From Candidatus Saccharimonadota bacterium (GTDB lineage: Bacteria; Patescibacteriota; Saccharimonadia; Saccharimonadales; Saccharimonadaceae), in contig UNSN01000007.1 of the NCBI GenBank assembly GCA_900555675.1, positions 1-31,121 of the forward strand: a stretch of 31,121 nucleotides of DNA. The letters run 5' to 3'. The notes below the pieces were generated by a model that was given only the letters and a program-made list of their open reading frames with translations, had not been told where the DNA came from and did no database searches. Positions within the stretch are counted from its first letter, which is position 1; each line of letters opens with the position of its first letter. Of the stretch, positions 2,909 through 26,558 are shown one piece after another. The translations under genes were made by a program, and so were the position numbers.

Positions 2909-2919
2909 ACGCGTATAAT
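2891..2919 (+). promoter_or_regulatory. dnaJ promoter
   Basis: TTGCAC at 2891-2896, a 17-base spacer, and TATAAT at 2914-2919. The start codon begins only 9 bases after the -10 box, so the mRNA should be leaderless or have a leader of 2-3 bases. Confidence 0.9.
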
Positions 2920-2928
2920 ATATAAGGT

Positions 2929-4038
2929 ATGAGTAAGCGTGATTATTATGAAATATTGGGCGTTCCAAAGACCGCTTCTGAAGATGAGATAAAAAAGGCT
3001 TTTCGTAAATTAGCAATTAAATATCACCCTGATAAGCAGGGCGGCGATGAGGCTAAGTTTAAGGAAATTAATGAGGCCTATGAAGTTTTGAAAGACAAGC
3101 AGAAGCGACAGCGTTATGATCAATTTGGTCATGCTGGCGTGGGTGGTGCTTCTGGCGGCGGTTTTTCCGGTAATCCGTTTGAGGGATTTGGTGGATTTGG
3201 CGGTCAAAATGTTCACTTTGATTTTGGTGATGGTGGACTAGGTGATATTTTTAGCCAATTCTTCGGTGGTGCTTCTGGCGGCGCTGGGAATGGTCGTTCG
3301 CGTGGGCGTGATGTTGAAACTAGCGTAACACTAAGTTTCGAGGACGCGGTATTTGGTGTAGAAAAGAAAATTAGTTTAATGCTGGATGTTGAATGTGAAC
3401 ATTGCCATGGCGATGGCGCCGAGCCTGGATTTGGAATGAAAACGTGCCCAACTTGTAAGGGTGCGGGTCAGCAAACTCGAACGATGAATTCGCTGTTTGG
3501 GCAAATCCAGCAGGCGGTTGTTTGCGAAACTTGTCATGGTAAGGGGAAAGTTCCTGAAAAAGAATGTTCGGTTTGTCGAGGAAAAGGCACGACCCGACAG
3601 AATCAGGATATCACTATTAAAATTCCGGCGGGGATTGATGATGGCGCGACAATTCGTCTACGTGATCGTGGCGAAGCAGTTGCTGGTGGCAGTAGAGGCG
3701 ATTTGTATGTTCACATTCGTGTTAAGGCGCATAAAAAATTCACTCGTGAAGGCAATATTATTCTTAGCGAAGAGCATATTTCTATGGTTGATGCGGCACT
3801 GGGAACGGAGATTGACGTGGAGACTGTGGATGGCGTAATAACGATGAAAATTCCAGCGGGCACTCAGAGTGGCACTGACTTCAAGTTGTCAGGTCATGGC
3901 GTGCCGCACTTACATAGTGAATCTCGTGGTCCGCATATTGTGGGTGTTATTGTTGATACGCCAACTAAATTGACCAAAAAGCAGAAGGAACTTTTGGAAC
4001 AATTTAAGGACGCGAAAAAACGAGGACTGTTCTCTTAG
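2929..4038 (+). CDS. dnaJ: Hsp40 co-chaperone DnaJ
   Basis: Stimulates the DnaK ATPase and delivers unfolded substrates to it. The 369-residue protein has the full type I layout: a J domain (residues 1-70) with HPD at 33-35, a Gly/Phe-rich linker to about 125, four CxxCxGxG zinc-binding repeats (CEHCHGDG, CPTCKGAG, CETCHGKG, CSVCRGKG), and the C-terminal substrate-binding domains (LRDRGEAV, IPAGTQSG, LSGHGVPHL). It is separated from dnaK by a terminator and has its own CIRCE-controlled promoter, so the two chaperones can be expressed in different amounts while sharing HrcA control. No ribosome site precedes the ATG, in line with a leaderless message. Confidence 0.99.
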   Translation: MSKRDYYEILGVPKTASEDEIKKAFRKLAIKYHPDKQGGDEAKFKEINEAYEVLKDKQKRQRYDQFGHAGVGGASGGGFSGNPFEGFGGFGGQNVHFDFGDGGLGDIFSQFFGGASGGAGNGRSRGRDVETSVTLSFEDAVFGVEKKISLMLDVECEHCHGDGAEPGFGMKTCPTCKGAGQQTRTMNSLFGQIQQAVVCETCHGKGKVPEKECSVCRGKGTTRQNQDITIKIPAGIDDGATIRLRDRGEAVAGGSRGDLYVHIRVKAHKKFTREGNIILSEEHISMVDAALGTEIDVETVDGVITMKIPAGTQSGTDFKLSGHGVPHLHSESRGPHIVGVIVDTPTKLTKKQKELLEQFKDAKKRGLFS

Positions 4039-4043
4039 TATAT

Positions 4044-4071
4044 TTGTCGAGAAAAAATCCTGTGTTATACT
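4044..4071 (+). promoter_or_regulatory. Promoter of the giant membrane protein gene
   Basis: An extended -10 box, TGTTATACT at 4063-4071, with a weak -35 (TTGTCG, 4044-4049). The start is predicted near 4078, giving a leader of about 20 bases that contains the purine-rich ribosome site AGAGGGA at 4084-4090. Confidence 0.65.
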
Positions 4072-4098
4072 GAAGCTAGCATAAGAGGGATTGAAGGC

Positions 4099-7000
4099 AT
4101 GGGATTAATTTTTCTGATAATAGTTATTATTGTAGTAATTAAGCTAATAAAATTATTACAGAGAGGTAATAGTCAGCCGTCTAATTATTCCGAAGATTAT
4201 CGGCAGGGATATTGGGATGGCGTGCGTGATGCACAAAATGGATGCGCCAAAATTGAGAATGATAACGGTCAAGTGAGGCTTATCACCGAGAATCAAAGCG
4301 CCGCTTCGCGGTTTGCGAATACGCCGTTAAATATCAGTAAAAATGAGAATCTAGATAATATAATTCCTGCTAGTGTTTCCACGGCTGAAGAGAGAGTAAA
4401 TACGGTTGCTGTGCCTGTTGAGAATAATATTGAACGGACATCACATATTGATGACAAGGAAAAGTTGTTTGCGGTGTTTATGCTGACTTTACCAATTGAA
4501 CAAGCACCACATATTGATGACAAGGAAAAGGAGAGGGGCCGTAAGACTACAATTAATATAGCACTATATACGGCATCGCTACTTCTGACTGCGGGAATAT
4601 TGCTTCTGGCTCAGGCAATTAATCTATCTATCCAACTTAGGTTTGGATTGGTGTGGCTGTTTATTTTTATTTATTATATTATTGGTCAGATATTGTATGC
4701 TCGCTTGCCAATATTGAAATCTGCGTCGACAGCACTTATTGGTACGGCTTTGGTAGCTGTGCCAATTGGTGGCTGGACTATGAATTTACTTTTAGGTATT
4801 GACCCCGCATGGTGCTGGCTTATTACCTCTGTACTTGGTGCTGTCTTGTGTGTTGATGCTACAGTGAGATTGAATAGTCGACCTCTTGCTTATGTATCGC
4901 TACTATCGATGTTTACGATGACGACTAGTTTGCCGGCTGTCGTGCATGCGCAGCTGGTCTGGTATTACGTTGTAATGCTGCTATTTGGATGTTTGATGAC
5001 TGTGGCTGCGTATTTTTCTAGTCGCCTTCCTCGTCAGTTTGTTGAACCGTTAAACGTTGTAAATCCGTTTATCGTGCCGATGACGATGTTTATCGCGCTT
5101 AGCTCGTCGGTATATATGGGCACATTAGATATTAGCGTATTGTTATTTGCTAGCGTTGCATATTACTTTACGGTTGCTCTTGTTGAGAAGTCTAAAAAGA
5201 TGCGTACTTATGAATTGACAACAGCTCGCTTATTGTTAATGGTGATGGCTACTAGTTTTGCAATGTATTTATCTGACGATAATCAGTTGGTTGTAAGCGT
5301 AATTCTAGGGTTAGTGGCGCTTGGAAATATAATCTGGTCCGCTGTATCAATGTACGTTCAGAAACAGTACGATAGACATCATGAAATAGTATTGTGGGCT
5401 AGTTTTGTTGTGTCATTAAGTGCTTTGTTTGGTGTGATCGGCTCTGGAGATTCGCTACGAATGACGGTTGCCTTTACCTTTATTAGTGTTATTTCAGCGA
5501 TTAGTCTTGCAATCCTTTTTTTGTTACGTCGTGTCCGCTTCGGTGTTATAGTTGTGATATCTGGGATTCTATTGGTGCCGATTGGTATAACACTATTCAA
5601 TATCGATATAGCTATAGCACCACGTGTACAGTATCTAATTTTTCTATTTATGACGCCGCTACCAGTTATTTGCCGATTGCTAATTTTGAAGCGTCCGAAT
5701 ATTAGTAAAAGTCAGGCTGCTTTAGTGTATGGCGCTGCGTCAACTTGGCTATTAATGGCAATGTTTACTTCGGCTATAATAGCCACTTATGCGACAGAGG
5801 AAGCCCTGATGTGTCTATCGGGCGCGATAGCTATCGGCGCTGGCATTATGAGTGTGGTTGTATGGCGCGAAAAAGTTTATGAGTTTGTAGTTGGAGTACA
5901 TACTTCTTTAATGTTGTCAGTATTTTTGCTAGCTTTAGGTTTTTCGGTGTCTAGTGAAAATATCTCTATTTTAATGGCGTGGATAAATGTGTCGTCGCTA
6001 TTAATAGTAGAATGGCTTTATCATCGTCATGACAACACAGCCGTCAAAAGTCGTGAGTTGTTTCTATATTCTATTATTGGCGTAGCTATCATTGTTGTAT
6101 TGTCGTCAATTCATCCGATAGTTTGGTTGCCACTAGTGGTGTCGCTATACTATGCATTTTACCGATGTCGTAGAGAGGTTTATTTGGGTGGGGCATATTT
6201 TACGACAATCATCTTTGTTTTATTATCCCTGCATTGGTTGAATATACCGTTTAATGACAATCTTGCAATTGCTGCATGGGTGAGTCTAGTTGGTTTTGGG
6301 TCTTTGTACTGGCTGTTGCGAATGAATAGGCAATCGTCAATTATTGGTGATATGACGCTGTGTGCTGCCGTAGTTCCAGCGACAGTGCTTCCAATGATTA
6401 ATCTACTGGCAACATATGATTTGTCGTTCAAGGTATCGGGATGGCTAGCAGCTGTAGCGGCTCTTTATATGGCGGTACTTGCTAAACGAGATTGGCGAAT
6501 AATGACAATAGCTGCACACCCGAGTCTAGTGTTGTTGCTTTACCTTATAGCGCAACGGCTTACCATTCCACTCGAATTCATGTCAGTCGTTGCCCTGATT
6601 GTTTTTGCGGTATTTTACGGTCTGGCTATTGCTGCGCGAATCAGAAAGATGTCGAGTCGTTGGTATTACTCTTCGTTCTATAGCGCCATCGGCTGGTCGG
6701 TAGCCTTATTGTCTATTGCTACATCAGTTAGCGCTACGGCGGCGTCAGTGATTCTGGCGGCGCTAGTGTGGATAATTAATGGTATCGCCTTGATGTTCGA
6801 AGGTATTCCTAAAAAGAATATTTTATATTTTGATTCAGGTGTGATCCTGATTTTGTGCGGCGTTTTATTTACTATTAAAAACCTAGCCCTACCCGTTCAC
6901 GATATCACAATACCATATTTGTGGTCAGCGGCAATTCTTTCGGGAGCGGTGATGTCGTGGCGTTGGTTGGGGTATATTCATAAGTCTACGATAATACACC

Positions 7001-26039: not shown

Positions 26040-26060
26040 AACTCTTATGTTTATTGTACT

Positions 26061-26066
26061 ATTATC
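26061..26066 (-). promoter_or_regulatory. Likely -10 box of the pilB operon
   Basis: Reads GATAAT on the minus strand, 21 bases before the pilB ATG. An alternative is TACAAT (26053-26058), 13 bases before it. Both leave a leader with a weak AAGAG site. The region is shared with the opposing tsaE promoter. Confidence 0.5.
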
Positions 26067-26087
26067 GCCAAAAAAAAGCTAGCATAG

Positions 26088-26093
26088 TATAAT
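26088..26093 (+). promoter_or_regulatory. -10 box of tsaE
   Basis: TATAAT, ending six bases before a GTG start at 26100, with no ribosome site. Leaderless initiation at GTG is predicted. Confidence 0.72.
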
Positions 26094-26099
26094 AAAAGA

Positions 26100-26558
26100 G
26101 TGAATATTTCTGGTGAAGAGAAAATGCGAGAATTGGGCGCGGCAATTGGTCGGGCTGTTTCTGGTGGGGAAGTCCTGGAATTGGTCGGTGATATTGGCGC
26201 GGGGAAAACTACATTGACGAAGGGAATTGCGCAAGCTTTAGAGATCAACGAGCCAGTTCAGAGTCCAACTTTCACGATTTCGCGCGTGTACGATTCACCT
26301 CGCGGTCTGAGTTTGGCGCATTACGATTTTTATAGGCTGGGAAATGCTGGAATTATGAGCGAGGAGATTCGCGAAGTGGCGGCTTCTAATTTGGTGGTTG
26401 TAGTTGAATGGGCTGGCGCTGTTGACGATGCATTGCCGAGTGATCGATTGGCGATAAAAATTACCGCGACTAGCGAAGAAGGGCGGCTTGTAGAATTTTA
26501 TCCTGGCGGCAAAAAATCTGATGAACTTTTGAGAAAAATAAAGGAGAATATGGCGTGA
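26100..26558 (+). CDS. tsaE: tRNA threonylcarbamoyladenosine (t6A) biosynthesis ATPase TsaE
   Basis: TsaE is the ATPase that, with TsaB, TsaD and TsaC/Sua5, makes t6A at position 37 of tRNAs reading ANN codons. The 152-residue protein has Walker A GDIGAGKTT (residues 30-38), the family motif SPTFTISRVYD, LAHYDFYRLG, and VVEWAGA. The start is GTG. It overlaps tsaB by four bases (GTGA), so the two t6A genes are coupled. tsaD and tsaC are not in this window. Confidence 0.95.
   Translation: MNISGEEKMRELGAAIGRAVSGGEVLELVGDIGAGKTTLTKGIAQALEINEPVQSPTFTISRVYDSPRGLSLAHYDFYRLGNAGIMSEEIREVAASNLVVVVEWAGAVDDALPSDRLAIKITATSEEGRLVEFYPGGKKSDELLRKIKENMA

Follow-up and report, generated by a model that had tools for sequence, protein, structure and literature searches.

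The window examined here, a 31,121-nt stretch of DNA from a Saccharibacterium, carries 12 genes on both strands in which a TATAAT-like -10 box ends just before the start codon (Table 1). The gap, counted as the bases that separate the end of the box from the start codon, is 6 in nine of the 12 genes (DUF192, comEC, ruvC, ruvA, ruvB, ‘bPH2’, recX, ‘PRC’ and tsaE), 7 in the pilin gene, 8 in the ‘retropepsin-like’ gene and 9 in dnaJ. These boxes and gaps had been listed in a preliminary description, and every one of them was found again on re-measurement at its claimed position. The same description noted the absence of Shine-Dalgarno (SD) sites, which holds for all 12 starts: an SD-like word (GGAG, GAGG, AGGA, AAGG or GGGG) at positions -17 to -5 is present in none, and neither is a purine-rich SD site 5-13 nt upstream of the start (0/12). 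The base directly before the start codon (-1) is T or C in 11 of the 12 genes, the exception being tsaE, with A preceding GTG. Judged by these features and by their recurrence in relatives, the 12 genes are very probably leaderless (0-nt leader) or near-leaderless (1-3 nt), expressed from promoters whose -10 element adjoins the start.

Table 1. Boxes close to start codons in the window, with two leadered, SD-led genes for contrast (last two lines).
Gene	Coordinates	Strand	Box	Gap	Start codon	Remarks
dnaJ	2914..2931	+	TATAAT (2914-2919)	9	ATG 2929	DnaJ domains (Pfam)
‘retropepsin-like’ gene	7309..7325	+	CATAAT (7309-7314)	8	ATG 7323	
DUF192 gene	8759..8773	+	TGTTATAAT, extended -10	6	ATG 8771	DUF192 (Pfam)
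comEC	9915..9929	+	TATACT	6	ATG 9927	
ruvC	14045..14059	+	TGCTATAAT	6	ATG 14057	RuvC (Pfam)
ruvA	14526..14540	+	TATAAT	6	ATG 14538	RuvA (Pfam); box overlaps end of ruvC frame (14530)
ruvB	15172..15186	+	TGTTATAAT	6	ATG 15184	RuvB (Pfam)
‘bPH2’ gene	16283..16297	+	TGTTATAAT	6	ATG 16295	
pilin gene	17526..17541	-	TGCTATAAT (box 17536-17541)	7	ATG 17528	
recX	19207..19221	+	TATAAT	6	ATG 19219	RecX (Pfam)
‘PRC’ gene	20454..20468	-	TATAAT	6	ATG 20456	
tsaE	26088..26102	+	TATAAT	6	GTG 26100	TsaE (Pfam)
recA	17563..17598	+	TATAAT (17563-17568)	27		SD GGAGG
yebC	11380..11427	+	TATAAT (11380-11385)	39		SD AGGAG

The origin of the window in a Saccharibacterium is borne out by RuvB, which shares 99% identity with the RuvB of OX335598.1, a Candidatus Saccharibacteria chromosome of 701,908 bases. 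Starts of orthologues were anchored by homology, comparing 31 window proteins (ComEC by its first part only) with loci L051-L130; among 796 family-locus pairs, 187 were dropped for an unaligned N-terminus and six because no start was found, and the distance table, built on TATAAT and TATACT boxes, holds 597 starts from 23 families. Three of these starts have the box at a distance of 0-5 in total, 113 at 6, 38 at 7, 26 at 8, 16 at 9, six at 10, four at 11 and 13 at 12-21 in total; a second, broad hump at 22-40 comes mostly from recA, yebC and pilM, which are leadered. When the hexamers are reversed, these starts give three matches at distance 6. The nearest genome compared, G001, was sampled over 400 of its 702 kb (373 called genes; boxes of the form TA...T with at least five of six matches, before a plausible start): a box lies at gap 6-9 in 89 of the 373 genes (44 at 6, 20 at 7, 13 at 8, 15 at 9), whereas gaps of 12-15 and 17-20 are found in 14 and 22 genes, respectively. 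Among box-bearing genes of this genome, 76 of 91 lack an SD word at any candidate start, and the peak at 6 recurs in the samples of genomes G074 (20 genes at gap 6) and G116 (31 genes at gap 6). The plot of distances, which the preliminary description had named as its check, thus shows the predicted sharp peak at 6, with a nearly empty range at 0-5 and a tail at 7-9: 6 is both the mode and the left edge of a 6-9 range, and the gap is not the constant that had been proposed, gaps of 7-9 being common.

One could object that pre-start DNA is AT-rich and that the window starts were chosen by eye, so that the pattern would be a product of chance or of a gene finder picking starts to suit the box. 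In the window, TATAATN6ATG occurs seven times, as compared with a mean of 0.42 and a maximum of 3 in 100 shuffles, and all seven matches open a reading frame (ORF) of at least 80 codons; in G001, TGNTATAATN6ATG occurs 34 times and its reversed pattern once. Counted over 400 kb of G001, TATAAT precedes ATG by 6 bases in 29 cases, by 7 in 27, by 8 and 9 in 12 each and by 10 in 14, every other distance within 0-40 giving 1-12; when an ORF of at least 80 codons is required, the counts are 23, 19, 10, 10 and 5, with 0-4 elsewhere. The start codons following TATAAT at gap 6 under the same requirement are ATG in 23 cases, GTG in six and TTG in none, and in relatives, where matches were not filtered for real genes, 114, six and two, respectively. 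A 200-kb stretch of Escherichia coli K-12 has a single case at gap 6 (TATAAT or TATACT before an ORF that reaches 80 codons or more). Shuffles, reversed patterns (at most two reversed matches in any genome of the class) and reversed hexamers at the same starts rule out chance, and homology-anchored starts, which give the same peak, rule out a bias in start choice: this explanation is statistically refuted and its probability practically negligible.

A further signal is the base at -1. Of the 113 orthologue starts with gap 6, 111 have a pyrimidine there (T 83, C 28, A 1, G 1), as compared with 265 of the 400 in which no near box is present, and across 117 genomes of the class TGNTATAAT at gap 6 is found with a pyrimidine 2202 times and with a purine 294 times, while its gap-5 version has 116 matches, the class-wide counts being unfiltered for real genes. 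The preference is tied to the start codon: allowing one mismatch in the box, the sixth base after it is a pyrimidine in 92% (n = 52, G001) and 94% (n = 278, relatives) of gap-6 boxes and in only 39% and 52%, respectively, at gap 7, where this base does not adjoin ATG. In leadered SD promoters of relatives (n = 101), A occupies the seventh position after the box in 62% and the eighth in 60%, which fits a transcription start about 7 bases downstream of the box. Since the -1 base would lie outside the RNA, the most plausible reading of the pyrimidine rule is a signal at the DNA level that fixes the 5′ end, and at gap 6 it supports a +1 position at the A of ATG. A different explanation would have TATAAT act in the RNA, as an A/U-rich, unstructured landing site for the ribosome such as some leadered mRNAs without an SD site have, with transcription beginning further upstream. 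AT-rich non-SD ribosome sites do exist in other phyla, the FCB group being named in the passages compared (PMC9581028); this explanation nonetheless appears highly improbable here, because the distance peak is sharp, the -1 rule depends on the gap, and at gap 6 both T at -15 (53%) and G at -14 (65%) are enriched, TGn being a promoter signal of DNA.

The promoters themselves had been described as extended (TGn) boxes with poor -35 elements. In the window, TGn is present at six of the 12 boxes and the best -35 element, scored at a spacing of 16-18, matches at 2-4 of six positions. Of 129 leadered SD boxes, 26 have a -35 with at least five of six matches, as do eight of 149 gap-6 boxes and 34 of 1685 random positions. 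TGn is rare at boxes inside ORFs (33/637) and is not specific to the near-start boxes.

Two modes of initiation coexist, as originally proposed, and which one a gene uses depends in part on its context. In the G001 sample, a near box is present in 28 of 70 divergent genes, 48 of 169 genes that follow a same-strand gene at a distance above 20 nt and eight of 113 that follow one within 20 nt; SD words follow the opposite trend (24/70, 63/169 and 72/113, respectively). The scarcity of boxes close behind an upstream gene also argues against an RNA element, which would still be needed there. With all families pooled, a near box is found at 17 of 200 orthologue starts within 10 nt of the upstream gene, 54 of 91 at 11-30 nt, 54 of 146 at 31-200 nt and 75 of 160 where no upstream gene lies within 200 nt. 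The start mode of ruvB clearly follows operon context: among its 79 orthologue starts, those at most 10 nt from the upstream gene have an SD site in 16 cases, a box in two and neither in 12; those at 11-30 nt have a box in four and neither in two; and those at more than 30 nt, or with no upstream gene, have a box in 31, an SD site in four and neither in eight. In the window, ruvB is of the leaderless type with ATG; its counterpart in the nearest species has AGGAG and a GTG start and appears, by eye, to overlap the end of another reading frame. Genes that are mostly SD-led across relatives include recA (11/11 orthologue starts), yebC (39/44) and pilN (29/33).

The 3′ end of 16S rRNA in G001, ATTACCTCCTTTCT, has an intact anti-SD, so loss of the anti-SD was rejected as an explanation. 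Absence of initiation factor IF3, suggested by a short open frame in G001, was likewise rejected: both halves are present in neighboring frames, and the IF3_N domain is found in 38 of 41 genomes of the class. An open frame with four S1 domains is present in G001. In this assembly (completeness 83), infC and rpoD (L154, L161) are each broken across frames.

The near-start boxes might instead be second, weak promoters, the main transcripts being leadered and coming from distal promoters or read-through from upstream genes. The window ruvC, ruvA and ruvB lie close together, making co-transcription possible, and many ruv starts of relatives have neither a near box nor an SD site. Such leadered mRNAs would, however, be left without the usual ribosome site, since the SD word is missing from all 12 genes, and the near boxes of divergent genes in G001 (28/70) also speak against this explanation, which is highly improbable.

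Conservation of the arrangement differs between genes. The gap is exactly 6 in 22 of 31 orthologue starts of the ‘PRC’ gene, whose proteins are 34-99% identical and whose bases between box and ATG vary, and in 10 of 14 of comEC. A box at gap 6-9 is found in 38 of 50 orthologue starts of the pilin gene, 13 of 16 of tsaE (12 of those at 7-9), 33 of 79 of ruvB and 25 of 53 of ruvC, and at gap 6-10 in 18 of 22 of ‘bPH2’; dnaJ and DUF192 have only one and two usable starts, respectively. Start mode is partly gene-specific.

The frequency of near-start boxes differs between lineages. In a cross-lineage run, with a training cut slightly different from that of the 373-gene run and with gaps 12-15 and 17-20 as controls, a box at gap 6-9 was found in 91 of 379 genes of G001 (controls 16 and 23), 39 of 146 of G074 (8 and 13), 44 of 161 of G116 (16 and 11) and 53 of 359 of G068 (20 and 11); in 50 kb of E. 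coli it was found in none of 38 (2 and 1). Once background is subtracted, the share of genes that appear leaderless or near-leaderless is roughly a sixth to a fifth in G001, G074 and G116, around one-tenth in G068 and around one-twentieth in other Patescibacteria. GC content was rejected as the cause of such differences: it is 0.43 in both G074 and G068, yet there are 20 gap-6 starts per 178 kb in the former and 10 per 400 kb in the latter. The exact extended pattern with a pyrimidine is present in 113 of 117 genomes of the class, and at least one match is found in 44 of 59 genomes phylum-wide (258 in total, 34 of them in G001, versus 10 for the reversed control). Counts of the exact extended word per genome range from 0 to 94, with 53-94 in genus g57 and 4-9 in genus g2; these are genera of the family to which the window belongs, and their use of the word differs several- to twentyfold.

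Several observations weigh against the leaderless interpretation. Gaps 7-9 jointly account for 80 orthologue starts, against 113 at gap 6, so the spacing is not fixed, and the loci share chromosomal neighborhood and ancestry, so the counts are not independent, and no probability value is relied on for the -1 rule. Purines make up 23 of the 50 bases at -1 that were counted for gap 7 in relatives (3/19 in G001); many genes with gaps of 7-9 would hence carry leaders of 1-3 nt. The A preference at the seventh and eighth bases of leadered promoters is weak in G001 itself (35% and 42%, n = 28). The proposal that an extended -10 marks leaderless genes was rejected: leadered boxes have TGn equally often, at 53 of 101 versus 72 of 120 gap-6 boxes in the named loci of relatives and at 14 of 28 versus 17 of 29 in G001. 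A box at gap 6-9 is found in 21 of 59 orthologue starts of ruvA and in only three of 33 of recX, and TATAAT or TATACT at this gap in none of nine starts of the ‘retropepsin-like’ gene. The context switch seen in ruvB is unclear within 10 nt of the upstream gene for ruvA (box 4, SD 4, neither 6) and ruvC (box 5, SD 6, neither 13). In 12 other Patescibacteria there is little excess at the gene level (40/336; controls 20 and 24), what excess there is lying at gap 6 (21 genes, 20 of them with a -1 pyrimidine). Finally, the breaks in infC and rpoD of G001 are probably assembly (indel) errors, which could blur gaps.

On balance, leaderless expression is the best explanation, and the preliminary interpretation is supported in substance, the distance peak at 6 being present in orthologues as well as in G001, G074 and G116. 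From the box, its spacing, the pyrimidine rule, conservation and operon dependence, all evident in the sequences compared, we infer the form of the polymerase, the actual 5′ ends and the ribosomal route. The housekeeping RNA polymerase with a sigma-70-type factor would bind a -10 element, often TGn-extended and mostly without a good -35, located 6-9 bp before the start, and RNA synthesis would begin about 7 bp after the box, a position that at gap 6 falls on the first base (A or G) of the start codon. A pyrimidine at -1 would complete the usual Y(-1)R(+1) initiator and so tie the 5′ end to the start codon; the ribosome would initiate on the 5′-terminal AUG or GUG without SD pairing, presumably by 70S initiation, known from other bacteria. 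Operon-internal genes, and some with leadered promoters, would use ordinary SD initiation through the intact anti-SD. The 6-base spacing would then reflect sigma-70 start-site choice combined with the requirement that the transcript include the start codon. The preliminary wording of a ‘codified start signal’ is therefore too strong, although the spacing is real: gaps of 7-9 are frequent, and a spacing of 6-7 bp has been published for Deinococcus radiodurans.

A more far-reaching interpretation, to which we would give slightly less than an even chance, is that in Saccharibacteria, and more thinly in Patescibacteria, promoter and start codon have been fused into one conserved word, (TGn)TATAMT-N5-Y-RTG, mostly without a -35, in which the start codon itself supplies the R of the Y(-1)R(+1) initiator and selection against leaders of even 1 nt keeps the position exact to the base. 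Promoter class would then predict translation mode, -35-poor promoters giving leaderless mRNAs and -35-bearing promoters giving SD leaders, and genes would flip between modes as operons rearrange, e.g., ruvB of the window versus that of the nearest species.

Comparable systems have been described. Nearly a third of D. radiodurans genes have a TANNNT box that mostly precedes the ORF by 6-7 bp and has been tested there as a promoter driving leaderless mRNA; other genes carry a GGAG motif for the ribosome (PMC12340547). The Saccharibacterial arrangement resembles that of Deinococcus-Thermus, according to the passages compared, in having a -10 box adjacent to the start at similar spacing alongside an SD-type motif, and differs in that the commonest box there is TACACT, rather than TATAAT or TATACT (PMC12340547). 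The passages compared from the same source give no rule for the -1 base, and the word ‘purine’ is absent from its main text; the initiator signature seen here appears sharper than in the published passages compared. Its bacteria-wide scan excluded symbiotic and not clearly classified species, and so would hardly have covered Saccharibacteria (PMC12340547). In Corynebacterium glutamicum, RNA-seq gave 707 of 2,147 mRNAs with a 0-nt leader; these leaderless genes start with AUG or GUG only and have a TAnnnT -10, a weakly conserved -35 and no functional bias (PMC3890552). ATG and GTG starts and a -10 with a poor -35 are shared with the genes described here, but transcript ends were measured in C. 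glutamicum, as opposed to the sequence alone in the present case. By every sequence feature tested, the putative leaderless genes of Saccharibacteria are of the same kind as those of Deinococcus and Corynebacterium. An earlier survey took a TA-like signal located some 10-12 bp before the start as a sign of leaderless genes, widespread in bacteria (Zheng et al., 2011; PMC3160421); its TA-led genes resemble the Saccharibacterial boxes, and ‘TM7’ is absent from its main text.

GeneMarkS-2 (Lomsadze 2018) reportedly defines a leaderless class of bacteria. The class is described in a further source, in the part of it compared (PMC9581028), and the GeneMarkS-2 study may already place Saccharibacteria-like genomes in it. 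No report of leaderless genes in Saccharibacteria or Patescibacteria was found in the titles and abstracts searched, a coverage that leaves out most subscription journals. In the portions compared, ‘leaderless’ occurs only in the reference lists of three papers (PMC7441243, PMC6851277, PMC10434106) and in a fourth concerns YchF (PMC12641178).

If a sixth to a fifth of genes in some Saccharibacteria are indeed expressed in this way, start annotation, the design of expression cassettes and ribosome studies would need a box-plus-start model beside the SD model. Much of bacterial diversity belongs to Patescibacteria, in which genetic manipulation is only now becoming possible; for one transformable Saccharibacterium, a neutral site has been published (PMC10633639). 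The -1 pyrimidine rule would allow true leaderless starts to be recognized cheaply by computation, with no need for RNA data, and the ruv genes provide natural pairs, leaderless and SD versions of one gene. Some antibiotics block initiation on leadered and not on leaderless transcripts, as stated in the passages compared (PMC9581028), and such drugs could act differently on Saccharibacteria.

The names given to some window genes need qualification. The ‘retropepsin-like’ gene matches Zn_protease (PF05618) in Pfam, and a TAATAT hexamer at gap 6 provides an alternative box that makes its gap of 8 ambiguous; Pfam searches of the proteins called ‘bPH2’, ‘PRC’ and ‘pilin’ gave no match for any of the three. 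The window comEC (9927-11377) is split over two frames, 9927-10325 and 10304-11377; the second part matches Pfam Competence and the first has no Pfam match, the split being either a real frameshift or an assembly error.

Two divergent pairs, pilin/recA (17529-17595) and pilB/tsaE (26040-26099), are separated by 67 and 60 bp, respectively; in each pair one box abuts a start codon, and the -10-like box of the partner lies further back. The pilM gene (21920-22972, minus strand) is leadered, yet an SD site is present in only three of 37 orthologue starts (L051-L130). Many relatives have a promoter like GCTCATGCTATAAT together with a word like GTGGGCATC directly before the pilM start, which may represent either a leader with a regulatory role or an atypical ribosome site. 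Exact GTGGGCATC occurs 19 times in the 100 loci L031-L130, 10 of them adjoining ATG or GTG, and the reversed word six times.

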